Shown: positions 1,553 to 17,593 of the stretch, one piece after another
Numbering within the stretch: the first letter of the stretch is position 1
How the letters are laid out: every line of letters starts with the position of its first letter
Notes under the pieces: model-generated
What the model was told of the DNA's origin: nothing
Databases searched by the model: none
Seen by the model: the letters and a program-made list of their open reading frames with translations, nothing else
DNA from: Anaerolineaceae bacterium
GTDB lineage: Bacteria; Chloroflexota; Anaerolineae; Anaerolineales; E44-bin32
NCBI GenBank assembly: GCA_020350285.1
Contig: CP070708.1
Span: 2,870,943 to 2,906,552 of the forward strand
Direction: 5' to 3'
Length of the DNA stretch: 35,610 nt
Program-made: the position numbers and the translations under genes

Positions 1553-2206
1553 CTATACCCCCAACCCTAATACTTGCCGAGCAACCTCTACCGCTCCCAG
1601 TGCATCTTCTGCATACCCATCCGCGCCTATTGAGTTTGCCCACTTCCGCGACACCGGAGAACCACCCACAAGGACCTTAACTTGATCTCGAATGCCCGCT
1701 TCATCTAGGGCTTCGATGACCTCTCTCTGACCAATCATGGTCGTCGTTAAGAGTGCTGAAAGACCAAGAATATCTGCACCCGTCTCCTGCACCTTCTCAA
1801 CAAACCGCTCCAGCGGGACGTCCACCCCTAAGTCGTGGACCTGAAATCCATTCACCGATAACAATGTGCCCACCAATGATTTCCCGATTTCGTGAATGTC
1901 GCCGTGCACGGTTCCGATCACCACCGTTCCGACGACCTCAGGGGTTTCTTGTCGTAAACTCAACTCTGGTTCCAATAAAGCCATGGCTTCTTGCATCCCT
2001 TTGGCTGCAATCAGCAGGTGTGGCAGAAAGAACTCCCCACGCGAGAATTTTTCACCAGCCTCCTCCATTCCCGGCAATAATCCTTGGTTGATAATCACCA
2101 AAGGTTCAAGACCTGCGCTAAGCGCCTCCTCGGTTAGTGCGACGACTCTTTCTGTCTCTCCTATGAGTAGTTTTTCAGTAATTTGGGCAAGAATATCGTC
2201 GGCCAT
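1553..2206 (-). CDS. Methyltransferase cognate corrinoid protein (MtbC/MttC-like)
   Basis: A cobalamin-binding carrier of 217 residues that accepts the methyl group from a substrate-specific methyltransferase such as the MttB homologue encoded just upstream. Residues 1-85 form the helical cap typical of B12-binding methyltransferase proteins. The Rossmann-like corrinoid domain follows, with DIHEIG at 103-108, in which H105 is the lower axial cobalt ligand. LSALLTTTM (149-157) and VGGSPVS (180-186) are the other conserved corrinoid-pocket motifs. I placed the start at the ATG at 2206 because it is preceded by GGAGGAAAGGA; the open frame extends to 2275, but that would overlap the mttB-like gene. 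It is the last gene of a three-gene operon, 31 bases after the methyltransferase stop. The cytoplasmic role is secure; the methyl donor is not known. Confidence 0.92.
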   Translation of the reverse strand: MADDILAQITEKLLIGETERVVALTEEALSAGLEPLVIINQGLLPGMEEAGEKFSRGEFFLPHLLIAAKGMQEAMALLEPELSLRQETPEVVGTVVIGTVHGDIHEIGKSLVGTLLSVNGFQVHDLGVDVPLERFVEKVQETGADILGLSALLTTTMIGQREVIEALDEAGIRDQVKVLVGGSPVSRKWANSIGADGYAEDALGAVEVARQVLGLGV

Positions 2207-2237
2207 AACTCGTATTCCTTTCCTCCGTCCGTAATTA

Positions 2238-3701
2238 TTATGCAATCGGTAATGGTGGCAATTCATCCATCCCAAAATCCTGTGCCGCCACCGTCGTTAT
2301 TCGGCGTAATTCCACCCTTAATTCATCGGTTAACGGGCGCGCTTCATAGCTACCCAAAAGTTGGTCCACTCGATCCGAAGCTCGATCGGCAGCAGACTTA
2401 CCTCCTCTGCTCTGCCACCCATCATACGAACAACGATCAATCACCTCTGAGGGGATGTAAAACTCTTCCTGGAACCATTTAAGCGTATGCGGACTGACGA
2501 GATAATCCGCTTCGTGACCCATAGATCTCATGAGGGTCAAGGCGATTGGTTCATCTCGGACTTCTATCCCTGCAACTAATCGCTTAGCCATCCCAATGAT
2601 CTCCGCGTCGATGACAAGCTTCTCAAAACTTTGACAACTTTCAAAGTCCATCATCCCAGCCCCTGAGATCATGTTGATACCTGTCAATGCTGCCAGGATG
2701 GTCCCTCCTGATGATTCCAATCCACTTTGTACATCCACGATCTTCGCATCGCTCATGCCCAGGTAGGCGTGGGTCGGCAGATTAAGAGCTTTCCCAACTT
2801 CCGCGTAGGCGCAATCGATCATCCAAGTCCCTACCGCTCCCATCGGCGTTGTTCCCTCACGCATATCGAAGGCAGCTGGTGACCCGCCCCAAACGATCGC
2901 TGCTCCCTTTTGAGATAGCTGATTAATCACTACACCACTCAAGCATTCTGCGGCATGTTGAACCACCGCACCCGCTAATGTGACCGGCGCTGTTGCTCCT
3001 GCTAGAGGCATCGATACCAATTCCGCCGGGATCCCAGAGCGAGCACAATCGATCATATTTTGACAAGTTATATCGCTCCACAGAAGCGGTGGAGAAGGGC
3101 AAACATCGAAGATCGCGATCGGCTTTGAGGCGAGCTCCGCCTCGCCACCGGCCATCGTCACCAACAGTTCTTTCATCGTCCACCACGTATCTTTACCAAA
3201 GGCTCCAGTAACGATCGGTTTACGCATAAAATTCAACGCGAGATAGAGACGGTATAGATCACCGATCTCCTCGGGCACATCCTTACAAATAAACGCCGTG
3301 CTTTGGGCGTCCAATTGCGGAAGCATTTCAACCAATTTGATAAAATCAACAAAATCCTCTGTCGTCGGATCCCGCTGCTTTTGGGTCTTCCTATCCAGAA
3401 TTGTTATCGCTGCCGAACCAGGATCAAAGTGAACGTTATCTCCGGCATAATGGACGACCGATTCTCCATCCAAATCATGAAGATAAAATTCACTCGGTGC
3501 GGTCTGTAAAGCGTCTCTGACGATTGATTCTGGGATACGAGCGATGCTTGAAGTCAAATCAACTTCCGCACCAGCTTCGGTTAATAATTCAAGCGCCTCA
3601 TCATTGTGGACTCTTACGCCTGGGTCCATTAACAAACCAAAAGCTTCGTCAATGATCTGACGTACCAATTCATCATCGAGCAGTTTTAACATAGGTCTCA
3701 T
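2238..3701 (-). CDS. MttB-family methylamine/betaine:corrinoid methyltransferase (no pyrrolysine)
   Basis: A 487-residue member of the MttB superfamily (COG5598), whose TIM-barrel enzymes move a methyl group from a methylated amine to a corrinoid protein. Family hallmarks visible are the N-terminal helix with LLMDPGVRVHN, the glycine-rich SMPLAGATAPVTLAGAVVQ stretch, and the GMSDAKIVDVQSGLES motif followed by FEKLVIDAEI. There is no in-frame TAG, so this is not the pyrrolysine-containing trimethylamine enzyme. It belongs with the pyrrolysine-lacking group, whose studied members (MtgB, MtpB, MtcB) use glycine betaine, proline betaine or carnitine. The ATG at 3701 has GAGGAG 8 bases upstream; a TTG one codon earlier is less well spaced. 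It lies between the activator and corrinoid-protein genes. The substrate cannot be read from the sequence. Confidence 0.93.
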   Translation of the reverse strand: MRPMLKLLDDELVRQIIDEAFGLLMDPGVRVHNDEALELLTEAGAEVDLTSSIARIPESIVRDALQTAPSEFYLHDLDGESVVHYAGDNVHFDPGSAAITILDRKTQKQRDPTTEDFVDFIKLVEMLPQLDAQSTAFICKDVPEEIGDLYRLYLALNFMRKPIVTGAFGKDTWWTMKELLVTMAGGEAELASKPIAIFDVCPSPPLLWSDITCQNMIDCARSGIPAELVSMPLAGATAPVTLAGAVVQHAAECLSGVVINQLSQKGAAIVWGGSPAAFDMREGTTPMGAVGTWMIDCAYAEVGKALNLPTHAYLGMSDAKIVDVQSGLESSGGTILAALTGINMISGAGMMDFESCQSFEKLVIDAEIIGMAKRLVAGIEVRDEPIALTLMRSMGHEADYLVSPHTLKWFQEEFYIPSEVIDRCSYDGWQSRGGKSAADRASDRVDQLLGSYEARPLTDELRVELRRITTVAAQDFGMDELPPLPIA

Positions 3702-3751
3702 CAATGTTACTCCTCTATGGTTTGGTACCTTCTGATGAGCTAGACAGGTAT

Positions 3752-5653
3752 CTAGAAAATCATCGCTTTCATAAACACATCTGTAAAATTCGGATACGTG
3801 GTTAGTTCCAGGTACTCGACCTTCCGAGCGATCTCCTCCGCTGCTCGTCGACGCTCAGATGAGATCAACATCTGTTTAGCGCCCATACCAGCAGCGTTGC
3901 CAACTTGTTGGTATTTCGCATGGGGAAAATCAGGGAACATCCCAATCCTTATCGCGCTTCGAATATCAAGATAGGTTCCGAAGGCACCAGCGACGATAAC
4001 CTCTTCGACCTCCTCATAATTTAGCTTGGCTTCTCCCAATAAAACCTCGATCCCTGCTCGGATCGCGCCTTTCGCAAGTTGGATCTCGTTCACATCCTTA
4101 CGAGTGACGATCACATCACGATCATTTCCTGATTCAGAAGCAGGGACGACAAGGAAGATCAGCTCATCGTTTTTCCGCTGTATGAGTGGATGATCCTCCT
4201 GTAGCCCTCCACGATGATCAATCAGACCTTCATTGAGCATTTGGCTAATAGCATCCAAGATCCCCGAACCACAGATTCCAACTGCAGGTTGTCCCATCAC
4301 CGTGTACACGCGAACTTCCTGACCTTGGATTTGAACACGCTCGATTGCGCCTGGCGCGGCACGCATGCCGTCACGGATGTGAGCACCTTCGAAAGCAGGA
4401 CCTGAGGCACAGGAACAACAAATCACACGACTGCCTGTTATCAAACTGATCTCGGTATTGGTTCCAATATCAAGCGCGATGACTGACTTATCTTGTTCTA
4501 CTACTTCCGTGGCGAGGAGCATAGCGACATGATCCGCACCAACATAACCCGCAATGATGGGCGGCAAATGCACATATGCGCCGTCGGACAATGCTAATCC
4601 AACCGATTGGGGTGGCACATCTAAACTATCCGAAACCTCTGGCACGTAAGGGGCTTCACCAAGCTGTCGAACGGGCAATCCGACGAACAAATGGTGCATT
4701 GCTGTATTGCCGACCACCACGGCATCAACGATCTGCTCCCGAGAAACTTGAGCCTCGTAAATTAGCTTGTCCAGCATCGAATTTAACCTGGAAACCACCT
4801 TTTCCTGCAGTACCTGTCGACCATCTTTATTTGTATTGGTATACGCGATCCTGCTGACCACATCTTCCCCATAACTAATTTGGGGGTTCATATCTCCAGT
4901 TTTCGCTAGGGTATTCCCACTACTCAGATCGATAAGATAAGCGGCTAATTTTGTTGTGCCGATATCAACCGCCAAACCGAGTAGGAGTTCTTCTGGATGA
5001 AGCACCGCGACCACTTCGTTTCCACGCAGCGCTAAACGAGAGTTCCAACCTTGAGCACGTAATTGATCCGAGAGATTCTCTAAAACTGAAAACCCGATCA
5101 TGGGTGAGGGCACTCCAAGCGTTTCGAGCACCTGTTTTATGCGGGTTACATCAGCCCGGAGGTCATCAAACGTTGGCGGGGTAAGCTCTACTTCGACGGG
5201 AACGACTACCGGCTCGGGCTCGATGGAGATCTCATGACCTTCGATTTGCAACCGTTGCGATGCGGTGAGTGAGGATAGAGGTATCTCGATTTTCACATCA
5301 CTCAACGGTCTCGCTTGACAAGCAAGACGATAGCCTTCTAGAAGCTCCTCAATGTCGAAAACCTTTTCCTCCTCCTTGGTTGGGGGAGAAAGCGTTCCAC
5401 TCACATGTCGAATCCGGCAGTTCTCACAGGATCCGACACCACCACACACAGAGATCAATTGAATCCCAGCATTCCTTGCAGCAGTGAGCAAATCCTCTGA
5501 TTCTTTAATGCGGATGCGACGTCCAACAGGCTGAAAATCTATATTGTAAGACTTGGAATGTGGAGCTGAATCTTCAGTCATCAGGATCCATTCGTCAATG
5601 AATCGATCTACATCGTTATTTGAAATAGAACCCACCCTCAAGGCAGGGTACAT
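3752..5653 (-). CDS. RACo-like ATP-dependent corrinoid reductive activator (2Fe-2S, DUF4445)
   Basis: A 633-residue homologue of the RACo/RamA-type activators that use ATP and electrons to return accidentally oxidised Co(II) corrinoid protein to active Co(I). An N-terminal plant-type 2Fe-2S domain has cysteines at 70, 76, 79 and 112. A linker/middle region (about 120-225) and an ASKHA-type ATPase core follow, with DIGTTKLAAYL (about 230), DIGTNTEISL (about 395) and AGAFGTYLD (about 557). It is first in the operon, 50 bases ahead of the mttB-like gene, as expected for maintenance of the downstream corrinoid protein. The start is uncertain: neither the first ATG (5653) nor the in-frame ATG at 5581, which sits closer to the ferredoxin domain, has a strong ribosome site. 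A candidate extended -10 promoter lies just upstream of 5653. Confidence 0.92.
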   Translation of the reverse strand: MYPALRVGSISNNDVDRFIDEWILMTEDSAPHSKSYNIDFQPVGRRIRIKESEDLLTAARNAGIQLISVCGGVGSCENCRIRHVSGTLSPPTKEEEKVFDIEELLEGYRLACQARPLSDVKIEIPLSSLTASQRLQIEGHEISIEPEPVVVPVEVELTPPTFDDLRADVTRIKQVLETLGVPSPMIGFSVLENLSDQLRAQGWNSRLALRGNEVVAVLHPEELLLGLAVDIGTTKLAAYLIDLSSGNTLAKTGDMNPQISYGEDVVSRIAYTNTNKDGRQVLQEKVVSRLNSMLDKLIYEAQVSREQIVDAVVVGNTAMHHLFVGLPVRQLGEAPYVPEVSDSLDVPPQSVGLALSDGAYVHLPPIIAGYVGADHVAMLLATEVVEQDKSVIALDIGTNTEISLITGSRVICCSCASGPAFEGAHIRDGMRAAPGAIERVQIQGQEVRVYTVMGQPAVGICGSGILDAISQMLNEGLIDHRGGLQEDHPLIQRKNDELIFLVVPASESGNDRDVIVTRKDVNEIQLAKGAIRAGIEVLLGEAKLNYEEVEEVIVAGAFGTYLDIRSAIRIGMFPDFPHAKYQQVGNAAGMGAKQMLISSERRRAAEEIARKVEYLELTTYPNFTDVFMKAMIF

Positions 5654-5693
5654 AGCAGAAGCCAGGCTCGAGGATGGTCATACGTGACGCTTA

Positions 5694-5702
5694 ATCATAT
5701 CA
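5694..5702 (-). promoter_or_regulatory. Candidate extended -10 promoter of the activator-methyltransferase-corrinoid operon
   Basis: On the minus strand TGATATGAT carries a TGn extension and a 5-of-6 match to the -10 consensus, about 35 bases before the activator's first ATG. No good -35 box is seen at the right distance, which is tolerable for an extended -10 promoter. It would fire away from the importer promoter at 5825-5853. Confidence 0.35.
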
Positions 5703-5824
5703 GAGCTTACCATTTTTTAGTGGATCAGCCTCCCGCTTAGATCAATAATTCGTTGGCGCTAGAACTGGGTACAACAGTTTTTCCTAAGTTCTAATCCACT
5801 CGCCTAAAACGGGAAATGTTGGTT

Positions 5825-5853
5825 TTGACACATGTGTCATCCGCTCCTATAAT
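5825..5853 (+). promoter_or_regulatory. Consensus sigma70 promoter of the peptide-type ABC importer operon
   Basis: TTGACA (5825-5830) and TATAAT (5848-5853) are both exact consensus matches, separated by the optimal 17 bases. Transcription would start near 5860, giving a leader of about 200 bases before the substrate-binding protein gene at 6060. An unregulated promoter this strong would be unusual for a catabolic importer, which fits the operator overlapping its -35 box. Confidence 0.8.
5826..5839. promoter_or_regulatory. Perfect 14-bp palindromic operator over the -35 box
   Basis: TGACACATGTGTCA is a perfect palindrome that covers most of the -35 hexamer and the first part of the spacer of the importer promoter. 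A dimeric regulator bound here would block RNA polymerase. No regulator gene adjoins the locus, so the protein that reads this site is unknown. It lies in the divergent gap and could affect both directions. Confidence 0.6.
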
Positions 5854-5924
5854 GGTGAAATAACTCACACATCGAAATCATATTCCAGGACCATATAAAA
5901 CAACCTTTTAGTATCTTGTAATAA

Positions 5925-5968
5925 CCTCAAGACTGAGGAATGATGAAAGTTTGAGGTCAATCACTCAA
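5925..5968 (+). promoter_or_regulatory. Two short hairpins in the importer mRNA leader
   Basis: CCTCA/TGAGG (5925-5938, 4-nt loop) and TTGAG/CTCAA (5951-5968, 8-nt loop) are consecutive 5-bp stems. The right arm of the second is followed at once by AAGGAGGTGG (5971-5980), a full Shine-Dalgarno-like sequence 80 bases before the real start codon. No known riboswitch class is recognised. The stems are short and may be incidental. Confidence 0.3.
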
Positions 5969-6059
5969 GGAAGGAGGTGGCAGAAGACAGCGAGAATTAT
6001 TTAGCAGTCTACGCCAACTGAGGACCATTCGCATTTTGATTTAAGAGGAGAAGAAAACT

Positions 6060-7745
6060 ATGTCCTTCAAACGAACTATTTGGATTGGTCTGCTGTTGTT
6101 GACCATGATCAGTCTAGTCTTGGCAGGTTGTGCACGGGCCACGGAGGAACCGGTCGCACCACCGCCTGAAGATACCGAACCAGCCCCCCCTCCGACTGAG
6201 GCGCCACCAGCCGAGCCCAAGATCATTACCATCGCCTGGACCCAGGAACCCGATACGTTGAACCAAGCGTATTCCGCCATGTGGTACTCGTGGGCGACAA
6301 CAGCGGTCTGGCATTGCTGGCCCTGGCAATATGATGAAAACAACGAACCCTATCCCCACATGTTAACCGAGATGCCCACTGTTTCAGCGGACGGCCTTGT
6401 CATCACCATGAACTTGCGGGATGATATTACCTGGTCGGATGGGACACCAATAACAGCAGATGATTTTGTGTTCACCCATGAGATGATCATTAACCCAGCC
6501 AATGCTGTTGACTCCACATATCCCTACGATTACTTTGAAATTTCGGCACCCGACGCACAAACCGTGGTGATGACCTTCGAGGAACCCTTCACCCCCTGGA
6601 TGAGCAATCTCTGGCAAGGGGTATTGAAGCCCAAGCACGTGCTGCAACCGGTATTCGACTCCGAAGGCACACTCGATGAAGCAGAATGGAACCTGGCTCC
6701 AACCGTTAGCTGCGGCCCATTCGTTTTCGATGAATGGGAGTCCGGCAGCTTCATTCGTTTTGTAAAGAATGAAAACTACTGGGGCGGCGAGCCTAAATTG
6801 GATGCGGTGGTATTCCAATTCGTTCCCGACGATGCCGCCCAAACAGCGGCTGCGCTCGCCGGTGACGTCGATATCGCCTTCTGGCCACCCTACGAGGACA
6901 TACCCGCATTCCGTGATGCCGGCCTCAATATCGTCACTCAGGCATCCGGCTACAACGAGGGCTGGTACTTCAACATGCGAGAAATGGCTTCACCTGGAGT
7001 CAAGGACTTAGTTGTGCGCAAAGCGATTGCAATGTCGCTCGACCGCGCATCGAACACCGCCATAAGGCTTGGGGTTGTTAAGCCAGTCAAGACATTCTTC
7101 GATGCCATTCCGGCTTTCGTCGACCCAACCCTGGAACCTTGGCCATACGACCCAGAGGCGGCTAAGCAACTCCTAGAGGATGCTGGCTATGTAGATTCAG
7201 ATGGTGATGGCATTCGCGAAGACCTCGACGGCAATCCACTGACGCTCACACAAGGCAACACCACAAAAGAGGAACGCCTAAATTACCAGGCCGTTGCTCA
7301 ACAGCAACTCCTCGAAGTCGGTATCGACCTGCAGATACTCAGTTACGATGCTGATATCCTCTTCGGAAGCTTTTCAGATGCTGGCCCTGCTGCTATCGGT
7401 GATCTCGACATCATGCAATGGTCAGACGCTCCTGCCTTCCCAGATCCAGACACGGATTACTGGCTGTGCAGTGAGATGCCAAGTGAAGAGTATCCATGGG
7501 GTTACAACTACTTCTTCTGCGACGAGACCCTGGATGCGCTCTTCAAAAAACAACTGGTTACCGTAGATGCTGACGAGCGGGCTGCGGTCTTCCACGAGAT
7601 CTCTCGCTACATGCATGAGAACGTGTACTGGCTCGGTATTTGGGAAGATCCAGACGTCTGGATCGTGAACCCACGCTTGTCCGGCTACTTGTTCTCGGGT
7701 GTGACCCCATTCTTCAACATAATGGATTGGGATGTCGTCGAGTAA
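6060..7745 (+). CDS. ABC importer substrate-binding lipoprotein, peptide/nickel (SBP_bac_5) family
   Basis: The extracytoplasmic solute receptor of a Dpp/Opp-type ABC importer, 561 residues. A signal peptide ends in the lipobox LAGC with lipidated Cys24. A Pro/Glu/Ala-rich tether (25-53) follows, then the family 5 binding fold, starting at ITIAWTQEPDTLNQAY and including the conserved LRDDITWSDGTPITADDFVFT stretch in two adjacent parts. The DSDGDGIREDLDGNP loop is common in this family. A strong ribosome site (AGGAG, 9 bases before ATG) supports the start. It is first in a five-gene operon behind a regulated consensus promoter and divergent from the methyltransferase operon, which suggests the ligand is the methylated compound demethylated there or a conjugate of it. 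Family members bind peptides, opines, nickel complexes and other solutes, so the ligand is unproven. Confidence 0.92.
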   Translation: MSFKRTIWIGLLLLTMISLVLAGCARATEEPVAPPPEDTEPAPPPTEAPPAEPKIITIAWTQEPDTLNQAYSAMWYSWATTAVWHCWPWQYDENNEPYPHMLTEMPTVSADGLVITMNLRDDITWSDGTPITADDFVFTHEMIINPANAVDSTYPYDYFEISAPDAQTVVMTFEEPFTPWMSNLWQGVLKPKHVLQPVFDSEGTLDEAEWNLAPTVSCGPFVFDEWESGSFIRFVKNENYWGGEPKLDAVVFQFVPDDAAQTAAALAGDVDIAFWPPYEDIPAFRDAGLNIVTQASGYNEGWYFNMREMASPGVKDLVVRKAIAMSLDRASNTAIRLGVVKPVKTFFDAIPAFVDPTLEPWPYDPEAAKQLLEDAGYVDSDGDGIREDLDGNPLTLTQGNTTKEERLNYQAVAQQQLLEVGIDLQILSYDADILFGSFSDAGPAAIGDLDIMQWSDAPAFPDPDTDYWLCSEMPSEEYPWGYNYFFCDETLDALFKKQLVTVDADERAAVFHEISRYMHENVYWLGIWEDPDVWIVNPRLSGYLFSGVTPFFNIMDWDVVE

Positions 7746-7769
7746 CCTCAATGTCGATGTTCGATAATT

Positions 7770-7802
7770 CTTGGCTGGGCTGGGAGCTTAAGCCCAGCCA
7801 AG
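7770..7802 (+). terminator. Intercistronic stem-loop after the binding-protein gene
   Basis: A perfect 12-bp stem (7770-7781 with 7791-7802) and a 9-nt loop sit between the binding-protein stop and the first permease. Only three T residues follow. Such structures in ABC operons commonly protect the upstream mRNA or cause partial termination, so that the receptor is made in excess over the membrane parts. Confidence 0.65.
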
Positions 7803-7824
7803 TTTCGTCATTAGAGAATATGCT

Positions 7825-8859
7825 ATGTCTAGATATATCGCCAGACGGTTGTTACAGGCAATCCCCCTTCTCATCATCATCAGCATATTAATATTTGTGC
7901 TTCTTCGAAGCAGTGGCGACCCACTCGCCACCATGGGCGGCCGTCGTGTCACACGACCTGATGATCGAGCACGACTGGCACGGGTACTGGGATTAGATCA
8001 ACCGATTTACATGCAATATATTTATTGGTTAATCGGAAATGACTGGGTGATGATCGATGTTGACGGTGATGGTGTCCCTGAAACGCAAGGAAGCAGAAGG
8101 GGTGTACTGCGAGGAGATTTTGGGAACTCCTTGGTCACTCGCGGTAAATCTGCAGTGGAGATTATTACCGAACGTTTGCCCAACACACTTATGTTAATGA
8201 TTCCAACCGAGATCATCATTCTGACTATCTCGTTATCAATTGGTATTTATTCAGCCCTACGCCAGTACTCTATTCTTGACCAAGTTGTCACCGCTGGCTC
8301 CTTCATTGGCTATTCCATGCCCATATTTTTCATAGCTCTGGCTTCAATGTATTTGTTTGCGGTTAATTTCAGGAAATGGGGCCTTCCTTATCTGCCAACT
8401 GTGGGAATGTTCGATCCCAAGGTAGGTAAAACCACTTCACAAATTATATGGCACATGGTCCTTCCGATTCTAAGCATGTCGGTCATCAGCATCTCAGGCT
8501 ATAGCCGCTACATTCGATCACAGATGCTTGAAGTCATCAGCCAGGACTACATCCGGACGGCATATGCAAAAGGTCTCTCAGAACGGATGGTGCTTATCGG
8601 TCATGCGTTAAAGAACGCTTCAATACCCATTGTAACCCTGATTGGAATTGATATCCCATTTCTACTCGGCGGCGCAGTGGTTACAGAAACCATTTTTGGC
8701 TGGCCGGGTATGGGACGCTTGTTCATCGACCATTTATCTCGCTATGACGTGCCTGTGGTGATGGGTATATTGATGTTAATCTCTATTGCCGTGGTTATAT
8801 CCCAATTGCTCACAGATCTCGTCTACGGATGGCTGGATCCGCGTATCCGGTATGACTGA
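7825..8859 (+). CDS. ABC importer permease, DppB/OppB-like
   Basis: The first inner-membrane subunit of the importer, 344 residues. It opens with the family signature MSRYIARRLLQAIPLLIIIS and has six predicted membrane segments. The cytoplasmic coupling region contains ISQDYIRTAYAKGLSE, the EAA-type loop that contacts the ATPase subunits. The large extracytoplasmic loop after the first membrane segment carries an insertion (about residues 72-92) with the calcium-loop-like DVDGDG at 78-83 and basic residues after it, which is unusual for this subunit. It follows the binding-protein gene after the intercistronic hairpin and precedes the second permease by 17 bases. The family is certain; the transported solute is inferred only from context. 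Confidence 0.92.
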   Translation: MSRYIARRLLQAIPLLIIISILIFVLLRSSGDPLATMGGRRVTRPDDRARLARVLGLDQPIYMQYIYWLIGNDWVMIDVDGDGVPETQGSRRGVLRGDFGNSLVTRGKSAVEIITERLPNTLMLMIPTEIIILTISLSIGIYSALRQYSILDQVVTAGSFIGYSMPIFFIALASMYLFAVNFRKWGLPYLPTVGMFDPKVGKTTSQIIWHMVLPILSMSVISISGYSRYIRSQMLEVISQDYIRTAYAKGLSERMVLIGHALKNASIPIVTLIGIDIPFLLGGAVVTETIFGWPGMGRLFIDHLSRYDVPVVMGILMLISIAVVISQLLTDLVYGWLDPRIRYD

Positions 8860-8876
8860 GATGGGGAAGTGAGATA

Positions 8877-9830
8877 ATGGAAACTTCGTTCGGGCCCACA
8901 GCCCCACTTGCTATCGCCGATGCTGAAAGGTCTCCCCTTTCCTTAGGTCAACTTGTATGGCTGCGATTCAAACGTCACAAAATGGCCGTTATAGGTGTAG
9001 TAATACTTATCCTCTTAATCCTTTATTCAGTCGTTGGAGCATTTTTTTTCACCGAAGCCGAAGCCAATCACACTGATCTTACCCTCAAATTTAAACCACC
9101 ATCTTCTGAGCACCCCCTTGGTACCGATGTGATTGGTCGTGACATTCTTGCTCGCACCATCTTCGGTGGACAGATCTCCCTGATGATTGGTTTATCCGCT
9201 ATGATTGTTCAGGTCATGGTAGGCGTGCTCATCGGCGCTATCGCTGGCTATTATGGTGGTCTTCTCGACAGCATCTTAATGCGTTTCACCGAAGCGATGT
9301 TTAATATCCCCCAACTTCCTCTGCTACTCGTGCTGAGTAAAATGCTTTCCGACAAAATTCCATCTGTGAACCTGTTTGGTAGAGAGTTCAGCGGCAGCGT
9401 TGTCGTTATCGTTGCGGTCATCGGTCTCACCAGTTGGATGGGTCTTGCCCGGATCGTGCGAGCTAATTTCCTCTCACTCAGGGAACAAGATTTTGTGACC
9501 GCGGCTAAATGCATCGGAGCATCGAATGCATCTATTATCTTTGAGCACATTTTGCCAAACACTATGGCACCAGTCATTGTTAATGCCACGTTGGGTGTTG
9601 CTAATGCCATCATCAATGAGGCTTATGTGAGTTTTTTAGGCGTAGGGGTGATGCCACCAACTGCCACATGGGGAAACATGCTCAATGGCGCCTATAAATA
9701 CATCGAAAGTGCCCCCTGGTTATGGATCTTCCCCGGAGGCCTGATCGTATTGACTGTGCTTTCTATAAATTTTGTCGGCGATGGCTTGCGCGATGCGCTT
9801 GATCCAAGGGCGCTGGTTGAAACTGAGTAA
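8877..9830 (+). CDS. ABC importer permease, DppC/OppC-like
   Basis: The second inner-membrane subunit, 317 residues, pairing with the DppB-like protein. A cytoplasmic N-terminal tail of about 35 residues leads to WLRFKRHKMAVIGVVIL, the usual start of OppC-type proteins. The PLGTDVIGRDILARTIFG motif and the EAA loop REQDFVTAAKCIGAS are present, and the C-terminus ends in the common DGLRDALDPR. Six membrane segments are predicted by eye. The gene begins with ATG 17 bases after the first permease, with GGGGAAGTGAG upstream, and is followed within 9 bases by the first ATPase gene. Nothing unusual is seen. Confidence 0.92.
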   Translation: METSFGPTAPLAIADAERSPLSLGQLVWLRFKRHKMAVIGVVILILLILYSVVGAFFFTEAEANHTDLTLKFKPPSSEHPLGTDVIGRDILARTIFGGQISLMIGLSAMIVQVMVGVLIGAIAGYYGGLLDSILMRFTEAMFNIPQLPLLLVLSKMLSDKIPSVNLFGREFSGSVVVIVAVIGLTSWMGLARIVRANFLSLREQDFVTAAKCIGASNASIIFEHILPNTMAPVIVNATLGVANAIINEAYVSFLGVGVMPPTATWGNMLNGAYKYIESAPWLWIFPGGLIVLTVLSINFVGDGLRDALDPRALVETE

Positions 9831-9839
9831 GAAGCAAAC

Positions 9840-10826
9840 GTGACCCCACTGCTGGAAGTTCGAGACCTCACGACCCGGTTCCACACGCTGGACGGAATCG
9901 TTCACGCGGTAAACGGCATCTCCTACACGCTGGAAGACGGTGAAGCGTTGGGTATCGTGGGTGAGAGTGGATGTGGTAAGAGCGTCAGTGTTCTCTCCGT
10001 CATGGGACTCATACCTGATCCTCCCGGCAAGATCGCCAACGGTCAGGTCATCTTCCGAGGTCAAGACTTGCTGAAACTTGACGAGACACAAATGCAACGC
10101 ATCCGGGGAAAAGACATCGCTATGGTATTTCAAGACCCCATGACCTCCCTAAATCCGGTTCTGACCATTGGTCACCAAATAAGCGAGGCGTTGACAATCC
10201 ACACGGGCATAGATAAGGTTCAAGCCCTTGAAAGAGTAGTTGAGTTGTTGGGGATGGTAGGCATCCCTAAAGCACACGATCGGTACCGAGATTACCCCCA
10301 CCAATTCTCTGGTGGTATGCGTCAACGGGTAATGATCGCCATGGCGTTGGCTTGCAATCCCAGCATCCTCATCGCTGATGAACCTACCACAGCCCTGGAT
10401 GTTACCATTCAAGCCCAAATCATCGATCTCATCAAGAGTTTACGAGACAGGTTGGATATGGCCGTGATTTGGATCACCCACGATTTGGGAGTTATTGCGG
10501 GTATGGTAGAGAAAGTAATTGTGATGTACGCGGGTTTCATCGTCGAACAAGGAAATGTGGATGATATCTACGAAAACCCTCGCCACCCTTACACGCTCGC
10601 GTTATTAAAATCAGTGCCTCGAGTAGATCGCAACAGCACAGAGAGATTGGCAACTATCCCGGGTTTTCCGTTAGATCTCCTGATCCTACCCCCGGGCTGC
10701 CCCTTCACACCGCGCTGCGCCTTTGCGGTGAAACGATGCCTTTCAAAAAACCCTCGTCTGATGCCTATCACATATGATCACGAAATTGCATGCTGGGTAG
10801 ATGTCACAACTGGATACGAATTATGA
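9840..10826 (+). CDS. ABC importer ATPase, DppD/OppD-like
   Basis: One of the two ATP-hydrolysing subunits, 328 residues. Walker A is GESGCGKS (41-48), the ABC signature is FSGGMRQR (about 156), Walker B is [12 protein letters not shown] (about 173), and the switch histidine is in ITHDLG. The C-terminus carries the oligopeptide/dipeptide extension with [15 protein letters not shown], a Cys-containing segment typical of peptide-type ABC ATPases and known in some members to hold a 4Fe-4S cluster. The start is a GTG at 9840, the only one that keeps the whole N-terminal strand ([13 protein letters not shown]). The stop overlaps the start of the next ATPase gene (ATGA), so the two are translationally coupled. 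Confidence 0.92.
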
Positions 10827-11803
10827 GTAGGGATGATGTGATTGTGCAGGTAAAAGATCTCAAGAAATATTTCCCTGTCACCATGGGAATTCTAATCCAG
10901 CGACAGGTAGGTGCAGTCAGGGCTGTGGATGGTGTGTCTTTCGATATATATCAGGGGGAAACGCTGGGACTGGTAGGAGAGAGTGGCTGCGGTAAGACGA
11001 CCGCAGGCCGCACGATCCTGCACTTGTATAAACCCACCGCCGGCCAAGTAATTTTCGATGGGATAGACCTGACCTCTCTGAAGAGTGAAGAATTACGGCA
11101 CATGCGACGGCGGATGCAGATGATATTTCAAGATCCCTTCGCATCCCTCAACTCCCGGTGGACCATTTCCCGCATCATAGGGGAACCTCTTCGGGTTCAC
11201 AAAATTGCATCTAGCAGCGAGCAAATCGAGCGGATCCAGCAACTACTGCACTTGGTCCACCTCAACCCCCGCTTCATCAATCGATACCCACATGAGTTCT
11301 CCGGGGGTCAGCGACAACGTATCGGAATCGCCCGCGCATTAGCCTCTAACGCGGAATTCATTGTATGCGACGAGCCCATCTCCGCCTTGGACGTCTCCAT
11401 TCAAGCTCAGGTAGTTAACTTGCTAGAAGATCTGCAAGAACAGTTAGAGTTGACTTATTTATTCATCGCTCATGATTTGAGCATGGTTCGTCACATATGC
11501 AGCCGTGTGGCGGTCATGTACCTTGGTAAAATCGTTGAACTTGCTTCAAAGAACGAACTTTACGATCATCCACTTCATCCTTACACGATAGCGCTCTTAT
11601 CCGCCGTCCCAGTCCCAGATCCATCCGTCGAGCGTCAACGAAAGCGTATTGTCCTCGAGGGTGATGTTCCAAGCCCTACTGATCCACCCCCAGGCTGCTA
11701 CTTTAACACTCGTTGCCCTCACGTCATGGAAGTCTGCTGTGAAGAAGAACCCCTATGGAGAGATATGGGTGGGGCTCATTTCGTTGCCTGCCACAAGGTT
11801 TGA
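10823..11803 (+). CDS. ABC importer ATPase, DppF/OppF-like
   Basis: The second ATPase subunit, 326 residues. Walker A is GESGCGKT (52-59), the Q-loop is in [11 protein letters not shown], the signature is FSGGQRQR, Walker B is [12 protein letters not shown], and the switch histidine is in IAHDLS. A C-terminal [15 protein letters not shown] segment matches the peptide-importer extension. The ATG at 10823 overlaps the preceding TGA in ATGA; an ATG 33 bases earlier in the same frame would create a longer overlap and an N-terminus not seen in the family, so I rejected it. It is the last gene of the importer operon, followed about 60 bases later by a terminator-like hairpin. Confidence 0.92.
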
Positions 11804-12330: not shown

Positions 12331-13488
12331 CTATTCGCTACGTAGAAAACGCAACGCTGCCTCAGCTAGGATGGCGACGCCGATGGGTAGGCAACGCTCA
12401 TCAATATCAAAGCGTGCGTTATGGTGCACCCGTTCATCGCCTTCTATCAAACACCCTAGTCCGAACATCGCACCGGGCACCCGTGAGGTGAAGAAACCAT
12501 AATCCTCCGCACCCATCTCAGGTGTGGGCGGTTGAATACACTCTTCCCCTAACAAATCAGTTGTGACCTGGTGCAGTAGTTCCACCACTCCTGAGTCGTT
12601 GATCATGGGCGGGTCGCCAACCTCAATCTTATGCTCGTAATCACCACCTAACGTCCGTGCAACCTCCATAGCTCGCTTGATTTCGTCATGGATCTTTTCT
12701 TGCACTTCTGTATTCATGTAACGAATAGTGCCAGTGATTCTTACCCGTTCCGGGATCACATTATCCGCTTCACCTCCGTGAATAGATCCGATGCTTACAA
12801 CGGCCGGTTCAAAGGGTCTCAATCGGCGAGATACAATGCCATGTAAGGCGAGAATGACATGACTGGTGATATAAATCGGATCCACAACTTCATGGGGCAT
12901 CGCACCATGGCCTCCGCGGCCGATGATTGTGGCATAGAGGGTGTCCACACCTGCTGATGATGGCCCATCACCCAGTTCGATATCTCCAGTATCTAAGGTG
13001 GAATCTACGTGCAAGGCCAATAGACTATCTACCTCCTCCAATGCTCCATCCTCGACCATACGTGGTGCGCCGCTAATCCCCTCCTCATCCCCCACTTCTT
13101 CGGCTGGCTGAAAGAGAAAACGAACTGTTCCGGAGAAAGTCTCTCGCGCCAGCAGGGTCGCCACTCCTAAAGCGATCGCAGTATGGGCGTCGTGACCACA
13201 CGCGTGCATCACCCCAGGGACTTGCGACGCATAAGGTGCCTCGTTGGCCTCCTGAATGGGTAGGGCATCCATGTCGGCCCGTATTCCGATCACAGGTTTA
13301 CCTTCTCCCAGTTCCGCGACGACTCCCGTGCGTCCCACCCCTGTGCGAACTCGGCAGCCAAGGTCTTCCAAGATAGCAGCGACCTTTGCTGCGGTACGCT
13401 CTTCTTGGAACCCTAATTCGGGGTGCATGTGGAAATCCCTGCGCCATGCAACGAGTTGACCCTCCAGTTTACGTGCAGCATCCAGCAT
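12331..13488 (-). CDS. M20D-family amidohydrolase (N-acyl amino acid or peptide-conjugate hydrolase)
   Basis: A 385-residue zinc-type amidohydrolase of the M20D group (HipO/AmaA/IAA-conjugate hydrolase type), which cleaves N-acyl or amide bonds of amino acid conjugates. It starts with the group's WRRDFHMHPELGFQE motif (15-29). Metal ligands are expected at C97 and H99 in HACGHDAH, E131 in QPAEEVG, H160 in ALHVD, and a C-terminal histidine in VHHNARFDID. The dimerisation lid lies around residues 180-290. It has AAGGAG 7 bases before ATG and begins 28 bases after the second mttB-like gene, so the two are probably cotranscribed. Context suggests it releases a quaternary amine from an acylated precursor. 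It lacks a signal peptide and is cytoplasmic. Confidence 0.9.
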   Translation of the reverse strand: MLDAARKLEGQLVAWRRDFHMHPELGFQEERTAAKVAAILEDLGCRVRTGVGRTGVVAELGEGKPVIGIRADMDALPIQEANEAPYASQVPGVMHACGHDAHTAIALGVATLLARETFSGTVRFLFQPAEEVGDEEGISGAPRMVEDGALEEVDSLLALHVDSTLDTGDIELGDGPSSAGVDTLYATIIGRGGHGAMPHEVVDPIYITSHVILALHGIVSRRLRPFEPAVVSIGSIHGGEADNVIPERVRITGTIRYMNTEVQEKIHDEIKRAMEVARTLGGDYEHKIEVGDPPMINDSGVVELLHQVTTDLLGEECIQPPTPEMGAEDYGFFTSRVPGAMFGLGCLIEGDERVHHNARFDIDERCLPIGVAILAEAALRFLRSE

Positions 13489-13516: not shown

Positions 13517-14932
13517 TCAATTCGAGATTAACTCGCTTGAGGCTTCCTCCATAATCTCATCTAAAGCTTGTTCCTGGTCCTCCGTGAGTGATGGGACCTC
13601 GTGTTCAGCCAGCAGCCTCTCTACTTCAGATTGCGCTTTGCCCCCCATTCCTTCTCTCCCGGTTCGATCCCATTCCTCCCAGGACGTACGATCGGCCAGA
13701 TGGGTGACGAAAATCTCTCCCGTACGAAGATAACGCACCGTGTGCTCCTGACTGAGAAAATTGCGTTCACTCTCCATCACTGCTCCGATAACATCAACGG
13801 CTAATGAATCCTCATCGACCTCGAGATCCCGTCGTAACCGATGTACGCTACCTGCGATCTCATCATCACAAACCATTTGGGCATACGAGCCCATCACACC
13901 TGCTTCCATCTCACCTATACCAGAAAGCTCATCCGCCCCAGCCAACGCGGGAATGATCGCATTGAGCGCCCTCTCATAGCCGTTTTGAATATCTAATGTA
14001 TGAGCATTGGTCGCCAGTCCATAAACATTAACCGGGAGACCATAAGCATGACCGATCTGGACCGTTGCAGCAGATGCGAATCCCAGCTCCACCCCTCCCC
14101 ACACTGAGGAACCAGAACGTGGTTCCATCATCGCCAAGCGACCGCAATAGATGATTGGCAATCCAGGATGCACCAATTGGGCTAAAACAACCGAAGCGAG
14201 AACTTCCGCATTTTGCTGCGTTAAAGAACCTGCCAATGAAAGCGGTGATGTCGCTCCAGCCGTCGGACATGGCAACGGTCCCAGTGCAACCCCATTACGC
14301 GCGGTCTCAATGATTGACCCTACGACGTCCTCCGGGAAGGTTAAAGGACTCAGTGGGGAAATCCCAAAAGTTAAAACCTCTTGAGGGGGACCGATGACCG
14401 ATGCCATCCTAACCACATATCTCACTTCAGCAGCTGTTTGAACGCCGGGGCCATGGACAGGCTTGGTTGTATGCGGCAGCGTGTGACGATACATCGCCAA
14501 GGTCATCACCTGGCCCGGTACATCTTGTGGTGTAAAGAACGGCGTTATGGTAGTTGCGTTTTCCAATGCATCGAGTACCTTTGCGCTATCACATACATCT
14601 TGGACCATCGCGGGGCGTTTCTGCCCTAAACGCGGTTCATAAACATCCCGCGCCCCTCCTAGATTGTGCCAATGAAGCACCCCATCACCCAATATGGCTG
14701 CCTTCTTATCCCTGCCATGAATAGTTACCGTGCGAGGGCATTTGGCTATCTCCCGCTCAACCAAGTCCGGTGGTAGATATAACCGTTCACCTCGGACAGT
14801 GCCTCCCGATCCAGTAAGGATTTCAACTCCCTCTGGTTCTGTCAACACAACACCGACATCGCTCAATAAACGTAACGTTGCCTCGTGTATCGCCTTCACA
14901 TCCTCGTCAGACAATACGATTAATTTCGCCAT
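13517..14932 (-). CDS. Second MttB-family corrinoid methyltransferase, divergent and without pyrrolysine
   Basis: A 471-residue MttB-superfamily protein, only distantly similar to the copy at 2238-3701. Shared landmarks include LLSDVGVVLTEPEGVEIL near the N-terminus, CPTAGATSPLSLAGSLTQQNAE in the barrel, and the TLDIQNGYERAL region followed by MVCDDEIAGSVHRL. The SDSK-type residues seen in the first copy are replaced by TNAH, so the active site probably binds a different substrate. There is no in-frame amber codon. GAGGAA lies upstream of ATG at 14932. No corrinoid-protein gene adjoins it; it may share the one at 1553-2206. It is flanked by an S9 peptidase and an M20 amidohydrolase in the same direction. 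Confidence 0.9.
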   Translation of the reverse strand: MAKLIVLSDEDVKAIHEATLRLLSDVGVVLTEPEGVEILTGSGGTVRGERLYLPPDLVEREIAKCPRTVTIHGRDKKAAILGDGVLHWHNLGGARDVYEPRLGQKRPAMVQDVCDSAKVLDALENATTITPFFTPQDVPGQVMTLAMYRHTLPHTTKPVHGPGVQTAAEVRYVVRMASVIGPPQEVLTFGISPLSPLTFPEDVVGSIIETARNGVALGPLPCPTAGATSPLSLAGSLTQQNAEVLASVVLAQLVHPGLPIIYCGRLAMMEPRSGSSVWGGVELGFASAATVQIGHAYGLPVNVYGLATNAHTLDIQNGYERALNAIIPALAGADELSGIGEMEAGVMGSYAQMVCDDEIAGSVHRLRRDLEVDEDSLAVDVIGAVMESERNFLSQEHTVRYLRTGEIFVTHLADRTSWEEWDRTGREGMGGKAQSEVERLLAEHEVPSLTEDQEQALDEIMEEASSELISN

Positions 14933-15034: not shown

Positions 15035-16867
15035 CTAGAAGCCTTGCTCCAACACTCTGGCGAGAAAGGTGACCCGACGCAACTTCGCATCTACCTGATT
15101 CTCCGTCTTTAAAAAACTGTGCCCCTCATCATGGTAGAGAACGAAATCGACTTCCTTGCCTTGAGCTAGCAGTTCATCGCGCGCTTGAGTTGACTCACTC
15201 GCCGGGCAGCGAGGATCATGGGCGCCGCAGATTAATTGCACCGGCACAACTATGCGGTCAAGGAAGAAGTACGGTGAACGCTCATACCACAGATCATGGT
15301 TCTCCTCCGGATCGCCGAAATTTTCACGATCCCAATGCTGCAGATCCTCCCTCGAGTTGGCATGAGCCGTGAACCAGTTGAGAAAAGGGACCACCGCTGA
15401 CCCAACCGCCCAACGATCAGGATATTGGGTCAAACTCGTCATGGTCAGATAGCCTCCATGGCTTCTTCCGGTGACAGCGATGCGGGAGGTATCAGCCAGA
15501 CCTTCTCTCACCAAATAGTCAGCTCCTGCTACTACGTCCTGTGTCTCACCACCACCAAAATCAAAGCGATTGGCCAGTTGCCACGCACGACCAAATCCGG
15601 TGGAACCCCGATAATTTGGGGCCAATACCGTCCACCCCCGACTGATCATATGTTGAGTCAAAGGATCCCATGTAATCTGACTCAACCAGTTCGGACCACC
15701 ATGGATATTGACGATTCCAGGGGGTAAAGGATCTTCTTTTTTATGATCCACGCGCTCCTCGTGGGGTGGCGAATAGAGCAAGGCAGGGACATCCTCTCCA
15801 TCCAAGCTCGGATAGCTCACCTCTCGAGGCATGACGAAGTTTGCTTGCCGCAGGGGCACTGGGAGGGAGTCGCTAAGACGCCGAAGGCCTCCATCACGTA
15901 ATGAAAGCAGCCAAAGATCAGGTGGATGCCGGGGGTTGTCAAAGATAAATACCAAGTGCTCCCCGTCGGAAGTGAATTGAGGGCGGTAATGAACCCCAGG
16001 CTCTACCTGGTAGTGTGTCTCTGTCCCTTGCTCGATTTCCTTTACGACAACCGATGTCGATGGTCCCTGGCTAAAGGTGCATGCGAGTTTGTTGCCATCA
16101 GGGGACCAAATAGGGTTCTCCCAATCCCCTCCCCCTTTTGTTATCCACGTGATTTCACCACTTGAGATTTCATATAGTCCTATGTCAAATCTGTCATGAT
16201 GATCGGATGAAAATGCAATCCGTTGACTGTCCGGTGACCAGCGTGCATCTTTAGCGCATATCGGCTCACCGCTTTGGCTAACTTGTATCGCTTCCCCTTC
16301 TTCCAGGGGGACAATAAACGTTCCGTAATCTTGCCCCTTGGTCTCGGCGACGACTGAGAGCCAATACCCGTCGGGTGACCAACGAATCTCCCAATCCGGA
16401 TAGTGATGATCAAGCACTCGTCGAGCTGTCCCACCTGAAGCGGGCATAATGTAGGTGTCAAAACAACCTGAGCGATCGGAGGCAAAAGCTATCCATTGAC
16501 CATCAGGAGACCAACAAGTACCTGGTTGAATGGCATCGTCCGTGTCCGGTGTGAGATTCTGGTGCTCACCTGTAGAAAGATCATAGATAAAGATGTCGTA
16601 CAGCTCACCACCGTCGAGATCAAAGACATACGCAATACGGCTGCCATCAGGTGACCAACGAGGGACAAATTTGGCGCCGGATCCGATGGTAATTTGATTG
16701 GGTGCTGAAGGCCTGTCTAATGGCAGGGTGAAGATCTCCCACTGCCCATCGGGATTCCAGGAAAATGCGACTCGCTTGCCATCCGGTGAAAGGTCAAACT
16801 CACCATAAGGGTCAACATATGGCACCCTTAGCAGGGCTTCTAGATCTAGAAGAGTCTCTCTTTTCAC
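15035..16867 (-). CDS. S9-family prolyl oligopeptidase-like serine peptidase
   Basis: A 610-residue serine peptidase of clan SC family S9 (acylaminoacyl-peptidase/dipeptidyl-peptidase type). Residues 20-340 form a beta-propeller made of repeated WSPDG-type PD40 blades, which gates access to the active site. The C-terminal alpha/beta-hydrolase domain has an HGGP oxyanion segment (389-392) and a complete triad: S469 in GRSHGGY, D551 in CGAHDPR and H583 in DEGHSF. The GTG start has GAGGAT upstream. No signal peptide is seen, so it probably trims short imported peptides in the cytoplasm. It sits 33 bases after the MetH-activation-like gene and 102 bases before the second mttB-like gene, consistent with one operon. 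Confidence 0.92.
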   Translation of the reverse strand: MKRETLLDLEALLRVPYVDPYGEFDLSPDGKRVAFSWNPDGQWEIFTLPLDRPSAPNQITIGSGAKFVPRWSPDGSRIAYVFDLDGGELYDIFIYDLSTGEHQNLTPDTDDAIQPGTCWSPDGQWIAFASDRSGCFDTYIMPASGGTARRVLDHHYPDWEIRWSPDGYWLSVVAETKGQDYGTFIVPLEEGEAIQVSQSGEPICAKDARWSPDSQRIAFSSDHHDRFDIGLYEISSGEITWITKGGGDWENPIWSPDGNKLACTFSQGPSTSVVVKEIEQGTETHYQVEPGVHYRPQFTSDGEHLVFIFDNPRHPPDLWLLSLRDGGLRRLSDSLPVPLRQANFVMPREVSYPSLDGEDVPALLYSPPHEERVDHKKEDPLPPGIVNIHGGPNWLSQITWDPLTQHMISRGWTVLAPNYRGSTGFGRAWQLANRFDFGGGETQDVVAGADYLVREGLADTSRIAVTGRSHGGYLTMTSLTQYPDRWAVGSAVVPFLNWFTAHANSREDLQHWDRENFGDPEENHDLWYERSPYFFLDRIVVPVQLICGAHDPRCPASESTQARDELLAQGKEVDFVLYHDEGHSFLKTENQVDAKLRRVTFLARVLEQGF

Positions 16868-16900: not shown

Positions 16901-17593
16901 CTACTTCCCACCAGAAACTGTCTTATATTGGCAGGTCTCTCCCATACTGCAATAATCACATGGGTGTCCTTCGTTCCCCACCTCAGGACCAAAGCCTAAT
17001 ACCAACGTCAGCGATTTACGAGGGATCATCATGCTGCTTGGTGTCAACCTTACGCCAGCTTTGTCATCACCCAACATGCTAAAGATTTCTTGTTGGCCAA
17101 TCTCTACGGGCCAACCCACCATCCCTGGGCTGAGAGGGATGGAAGCCCGATGTCCCTGCTCAGCGACTTGGGTTTCGAAATGGTGGCAGACGGCGTTCGC
17201 CAGGGATTCGACTGCCGCCGAGCCAAAACCATCAAGCGCCAGCCCATAGGCCGGATCCTCTCCCATCACCTGCGACACCCTTCTTTCAAGCGAGTCGCCT
17301 ATGGTGCATAAAACCCCGACGACCCTCTCCGCCGCACCAAGGTGTTGAACGATCAGCGAGCCTGTTAATCGCGCACCGCCCTCAAGGTCGATCCGCTCAT
17401 GACGCAGGGATTCAACGGTCCTCCAACGATAGGCCACTACCGGTTCAAGATGGGCCTTTCCCTCCTTTAAAGCCTTTTCTGCCAGATCCACTAAAGCACC
17501 CCCGCGCATCCTGACGGCTTCTGGATCGCTCCCCTGACTTCGGAGGACTGCATCTACATCGATATCCAGTTCCCAATTTCTCAGAATCGACAT
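16901..17593 (-). CDS. Stand-alone MetH activation-domain-like protein with C-terminal Cys motif
   Basis: A 230-residue protein resembling the S-adenosylmethionine-binding reactivation domain of B12-dependent methionine synthase, here as an independent protein. The diagnostic stretch is SPGMVGWPVEIGQQ (155-168) followed by GVRLTPSSMMIPRKS (180-194). Residues 85-145 match the region with the VVGVLCTIGDSLE motif of the family. Beyond the fold, the C-terminus has C212-x2-C215-x5-C221, which could bind an iron-sulfur cluster or zinc. No methionine synthase gene is nearby; the neighbours are the S9 peptidase and MttB-family genes, so it may help methylate or reactivate a corrinoid protein of this locus. 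The family is fairly sure, the role inferred. Confidence 0.8.
   Translation of the reverse strand: MSILRNWELDIDVDAVLRSQGSDPEAVRMRGGALVDLAEKALKEGKAHLEPVVAYRWRTVESLRHERIDLEGGARLTGSLIVQHLGAAERVVGVLCTIGDSLERRVSQVMGEDPAYGLALDGFGSAAVESLANAVCHHFETQVAEQGHRASIPLSPGMVGWPVEIGQQEIFSMLGDDKAGVRLTPSSMMIPRKSLTLVLGFGPEVGNEGHPCDYCSMGETCQYKTVSGGK

Follow-up and report, generated by a model that had tools for sequence, protein, structure and literature searches.

Inactive B12 proteins are rescued by two unrelated routes: AdoMet-dependent reductive methylation, as in the methionine synthase MetH, and ATP-dependent reduction, as carried out by RACo or RamA. A stand-alone protein of the MetH type is TM0269 (PDB 1j6r), described as the reactivation protein of the Thermotoga maritima methionine synthase TM0268. 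We analysed a stretch of 35,610 nucleotides from an Anaerolineaceae bacterium (GCA_020350285.1, contig CP070708.1; hereafter the window), which encodes a MetH-activation-like protein of this stand-alone kind. Like TM0269, the window protein is of similar length, and the two can be aligned over most of that length. In contrast, TM0269 keeps an R..SPGY motif and its chain ends before any cysteine tail; it serves a methionine synthase, whereas the window protein has lost the Arg and the Tyr and its family pairs with RACo. With the C-terminal activation domain of MetH (PF02965) the window protein shares profile similarity and the equivalent of E1097, but it is not fused to MetH, scores below the cut-off, lacks the equivalents of R1134 and Y1139 and carries a cysteine tail.

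On the side of the ATP-dependent route, the RACo of the window is a homologue of AcsV, the corrinoid activator of CODH/ACS operons (NF040756, 446 bits). However, none of the nine CODH/ACS-linked RACo genes examined adjoins a homologue of the activation-like gene. DUF1638 (PF07796), which Pfam treats as a family separate from the activation-like protein, adjoins RACo genes in some loci. No description of a RACo paired with a MetH-activation-like protein was found in the literature searched, whose coverage excluded most subscription journals.

Distant homology to the MetH activation domain

The gene at 16901-17593 is a minus-strand ORF with an ATG start and encodes 230 residues ending in ...HPCDYCSMGETCQYKTVSGGK; it is present in one copy in the genome (3.4 Mb, one contig). 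Comparison with a same-genus relative gave a dN/dS of 0.14-0.19, which reflects purifying selection and marks it as a working gene. Pfam PF02965 scores the window protein at 16 bits, below the cut-off of 25, so that a profile match is not reached, and 16 of the 34 members of its subfamily (A1) match this profile only at E<=0.01. The sole match of the window protein in the PDB (phmmer) was 1j6r with an E-value of 4e-7, and a profile of the 34 A1 members aligned with the same structure over most of its length at 7.7e-14. Profile-profile comparison (hhalign) of the family with 26 MetH C-termini yielded a probability of 90.8%. Judged by these comparisons, the protein is distantly related to the MetH activation domain, with T. 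maritima TM0269 as its nearest solved structure. The independent MetH-activation-like protein proposed in an earlier note on this DNA is thereby confirmed, the homology being real but remote. AlphaFold, run on two sequences only (the window protein and that of locus L003), gave a pLDDT of 31, too low to serve as a model, and a scan of viral contigs for relatives of the window protein found none.

The earlier note had asked whether the genome's MetH lacks its own activation domain, since a split metH with exactly this gene as its activation part would have spoken against the note's reading. A search of the genome with PF02965 identified one full-length MetH of 1180 residues with its own PF02965 domain at 120 bits (ORF L033:2398-5940), and no short MetH is encoded in the window. 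Because the genome's own MetH is full-length, a split metH was rejected. True split systems do occur in the same order and consist of MTHFR (MetF), a stand-alone activation protein and a MetH of about 790 residues ending at the B12 domain. Their activation proteins (A2, n=5) retain the Arg, contain four cysteines and form a separate clade. Loci L083, L086, L089 and L092 show this arrangement of MTHFR, four-Cys activation protein and MetH without activation domain.

The AdoMet site and the cysteine tail

Residues of the 34 A1 members were aligned to E. coli MetH, with numbers checked on the sequence. The E. coli motif RPAPGY (R1134-Y1139) corresponds to PLSPGM in the window protein (residues 153-158), so both Arg and Tyr are lost. 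Throughout A1, the R1134 equivalent is Pro (31 members) or Ala (three) and never Arg (0/34), and the Y1139 equivalent is Met (28), Leu (four), Ala (one) or Glu (one) and never Tyr (0/34), while the E1097 equivalent is Glu in 27 of 34. Arg and Tyr are both present in all five split-type A2 proteins, and the genome's own MetH has the R1134-equivalent Arg and contains the motif RYSWGYP. Arg-1172 of human MetH, the R1134 equivalent, contacts AdoMet in an AlphaFold model (PMC12272874). Tyr1139 of E. coli MetH caps the cobalt and tunes its potential, the Co(II)/Co(I) potential being lower in the Tyr-to-Phe mutant (PMC10567725). Because the equivalents of both residues are lost, an AdoMet route is unlikely for the window protein. 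The AdoMet-dependent reactivation that the earlier note had suggested for this gene is thus not borne out, as the AdoMet-contacting Arg is missing from all 34 subfamily members and the cobalt-capping Tyr is replaced.

The C-terminal CxxCx5C tail (C212, C215 and C221; residues 212-221) is found in 34 of 34 A1 members, always with spacing 2/5. C96 and C136 are each present in 30 of the 34, besides the three invariant tail cysteines. A CxxCx4-5C tail occurs in 132 of 142 distinct homologues, a set deduplicated by the last 100 residues in which a few sequences are truncated and one pair is possibly the same gene. The branch of stand-alone proteins that keeps the Arg has the tail just as commonly (48/48), and the idea that the tail is a special addition linked to RACo was therefore rejected. 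Hence, the cysteine motif noticed earlier is real, but it is ordinary for the stand-alone family and not an added feature special to this gene. One subgroup (L082, L085, L087, L088, L090 and L213), marked by RPGIGxWP, is without any cysteine tail; four of these six members share their locus with corrinoid and MtmB-like genes.

Gene order and pairing with RACo

The features of the window are listed below. Pfam agrees with the S9 and MttB neighbours pointed out in the earlier note, and it identifies RACo, MttB and a corrinoid protein at 1553-5653. The methyltransferase context named in that note is supported as well, the protein being tied to corrinoid methyltransferases.

Features of the window, with the basis of each assignment
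Feature	Position	Strand	Basis
Corrinoid protein, cap and B12-binding domains	1553..2275	-	Pfam
MttB-family methyltransferase adjoining RACo	2238..3704	-	Pfam
Corrinoid activase of the RACo type, ATP-dependent, with a 2Fe-2S domain	3752..5653	-	Pfam; RACo tree
Gap between RACo and divergent transporter gene	5654..6059	.	comparison with L039, L040
Five-gene ABC-transporter-like block	6060..11803	+	colinear with same-genus locus L039
M20 peptidase/amidohydrolase	12331..13488	-	Pfam; 85% to L039, same cluster there
Second MttB-family methyltransferase	13517..14932	-	Pfam
S9 prolyl oligopeptidase-family protein	15035..16867	-	Pfam; incidental neighbour
MetH-activation-like protein of 230 aa, stand-alone; subfamily A1 (no AdoMet site, linked to RACo)	16901..17593	-	profile/PDB searches
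CxxCx5C tail (C212, C215, C221)	16931..16960	-	conservation in A1
Equivalent of E. coli MetH R1134-Y1139	17120..17137	-	alignment

The RACo of the window is the only one detected in its genome. The activation-like gene lies 11 kb from it in the same cluster, behind the M20, MttB and S9 genes; the intervening five-gene block is presumably transporter-like, judging by its sequence. In the same-genus loci L039 and L040 the activation-like gene stands between a transporter gene and RACo, filling the slot that is an empty 406-bp gap in the window. In L039, which has longer flanks, RACo is followed by MttB and the corrinoid protein, and to either side of the slot each gene has its counterpart in the window. 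Within the genus, the activation-like proteins group together at 85/79 only, whereas the RACos of the genus form one clade at 99, in which the window's RACo joins four others; two of those genomes (L039 and L040) have the activation-like gene directly upstream. On these groupings, the activation-like gene was likely relocated, rather than replaced, in the lineage of the window. The S9 gene, which adjoins the activation-like gene in no locus other than the window and that of its nearest relative, was rejected as a meaningful neighbour.

Among the 142 homologues, the next gene downstream is a RACo on the same strand in 35 (26 in the order, nine in another class), none of which has the Arg, and MttB in 30, all of which have it. 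A corrinoid or short MetH gene follows in eight (four being short MetH; Arg in five) and another gene in 69 (Arg in 13). Wide stretches were fetched for 60 of the matched places in the order, and 47 loci had at least 1.5 kb downstream; RACo is next in 23 of these, 26 have it at any position, and 21 have a corrinoid or MttB gene within eight genes. Further operon members include a pterin-binding methyltransferase, MtmB-family or MttB-family proteins and homocysteine methyltransferase, and one operon contains MTHFR and formate-THF ligase. Two observations count against a role beside RACo: the 11 kb between the two genes in the window, and the absence of RACo, MttB and corrinoid genes from the 400 bp downstream of 56 of the 94 Arg-less homologues, although contig ends cut off some of these.

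A homologue is present in 66 of 301 genomes of the order and RACo in 203. RACo occurs in 65 of the 66 genomes with a homologue compared to 138 of the 235 without (counts that ignore kinship), and the one exception, G040, is of the split-MetH kind. The earlier note had suggested that the protein may provide an alternative to RACo; its relatives, which have RACo next downstream in both the order and the other class, and the 65 genomes with both mark it as a neighbour of RACo instead. In a tree of 73 RACo proteins, 27 adjoin a homologue, and 26 of these fall into one clade of 41 with a support of 99, which further comprises ten others and five DUF1638-linked proteins. For some RACo genes of this clade (clade I), a homologue is missing from the adjoining position or from the genome, which again counts against a role beside RACo. 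A quick tree of the homologues separates an Arg side from an Arg-less RACo side, which includes the window protein, with a weak root support of 50. A single deep split thus carries both the Arg loss and the RACo pairing, and the association may represent one evolutionary event rather than many.

DUF1638 genes of the order adjoin clade-I RACo in five loci without an activation-like gene (L106 and L108-L111, of which L106 and L108 were tested with Pfam and the others assigned by similar sequence). DUF1638 thus seems to take the slot of the activation-like gene beside RACo in other genomes. Loci L071 and L073, with corrinoid protein, homocysteine methyltransferase, activation-like protein and RACo, resemble a modular methionine synthase equipped with the two repair components. 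MtmB-family ORFs (L036:12011-13405, L052:800-2194 and others; PF05369, E-value 1e-88 for L036) adjoin corrinoid proteins in Anaerolineae-like operons and are uninterrupted, thus without an in-frame stop codon.

Scanning 400 genomes of the phylum with the A1 profile gave matches in 15. A second stand-alone branch, A4, keeps both Arg and Tyr, has a CxxCx4C tail and heads operons in the order A4, MttB, pterin methyltransferase, MttB, corrinoid protein. Matches to A4 were found in 64 of 294 genomes of one class, 34 of them strong (E<=1e-72), and in all 30 strong members fetched the Arg is present and the following gene is MttB. In the same class, nine extra loci fetched with a family member upstream of RACo all lack the Arg. 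RACo was undetected in 12 of the 34 genomes with a strong A4 (ten of these at least 90% complete) and detected in 22, and it is commoner with the A4 branch than in the rest (22/34 versus 77/260 genomes, kinship ignored). An exclusive rule, Arg kept and no RACo, drawn from five of six genomes, was accordingly rejected in the larger sample. Proteins of the Arg-keeping branch are candidates for an activator of MttB systems that is driven by AdoMet. The AdoMet idea, not borne out for the window gene, fits this sister branch better, with its MttB operons and the third of genomes without detected RACo. Loci L214-L219 (e.g. L215:6022-6723) hold Arg-keeping stand-alone proteins heading MttB operons. 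Another stand-alone group (L202-L212, L187-L190 and L282), with PGSLxDWP and a CxLCPRxNC tail, is mostly without Arg and adjoins RACo or MttB in none of its loci.

Possible roles of the window protein

We consider it reasonably probable that the window protein is an AdoMet-independent accessory of the RACo-type activator, acting for the corrinoid protein of the cluster. As the AdoMet-gripping residue is gone and RACo adjoins in relatives, the protein probably helps the ATP-driven B12 repair enzyme and does not replace it. Gene pairing, lost AdoMet residue and kept homology together agree with an accessory that would bind the corrinoid protein as RACo delivers the electron, and from them we infer a docking step, an order of events, an electron path and a metal site. 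Once the cobalt has slipped to inactive Co(II), the activation-like protein would dock over the corrinoid protein, as the MetH activation domain does, displace the cap and keep the cofactor reducible. An electron would then come from ATP-driven RACo via its 2Fe-2S domain. Because the AdoMet-contacting Arg is lost, the activation-like protein would not methylate the cobalt, and Co(I) would be passed directly back to the methyltransferase. Metal binding is probable for the three-Cys tail, and an Fe-S cluster there may aid electron entry. To our knowledge, the RACo/RamQ-type activators characterised so far function without a partner of this kind, which counts against the accessory reading. A precedent for an accessory of RACo is given by Phaeobacter, where DUF1638 and a RamA-like protein are needed for methionine synthesis (PMC5764234).

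Of the other explanations, a corrinoid chaperone or loading factor, which would deliver or hold cobalamin for the corrinoid protein and use the activation fold for docking only, appears unlikely. Cofactor loading of MetH has the activation domain over the cobalamin domain (PMC10567725) and corrinoid protein genes are found in the operons, but RACo is next downstream for 35 homologues compared to a corrinoid-domain gene for only eight. Quite unlikely is an AdoMet-dependent reactivator that binds AdoMet and methylates the reduced cobalt as an alternative to RACo. Membership of the MetH activation superfamily, the mostly retained E1097 equivalent and the sister branch, with Arg, Tyr and MttB operons and in part without detected RACo, would agree with it, but Arg and Tyr are absent throughout the subfamily of the window protein, and its genome encodes RACo, which adjoins the gene in relatives. 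That the protein has lost reactivation and become a redox or regulatory protein, its tail sensing metal or oxygen, we regard as very unlikely: the tail is near-invariant in AdoMet-type and RACo-type branches alike and the Arg-less CxLCPRxNC group stands apart from RACo and MttB, but the operon pairing with RACo argues against it. A TM0269-like piece of a split methionine synthase, for which the closest solved structure and the true split systems of the order could be cited, is highly improbable given the complete MetH of the genome and the separate, Arg-keeping clade of all five split-type proteins.

The accessory reading offers a partner protein for a class of activases thought to act alone. 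A MetH-type module without the AdoMet Arg is paired genetically with RACo, and a sister branch with the Arg sits in MttB operons, a third of its genomes being without detected RACo. From this it can be predicted, clearly and in a form open to testing, whether a given corrinoid methyltransferase system relies on AdoMet or on ATP. As a tentative extension, which we find possible although somewhat doubtful, the MetH-type docking module may have given up AdoMet and become an Fe-S relay from RACo to the corrinoid protein, while its Arg-keeping sister would run MttB-type methyltransferases on AdoMet without RACo. If this were true, the two known B12 repair routes would be two states of one protein family.
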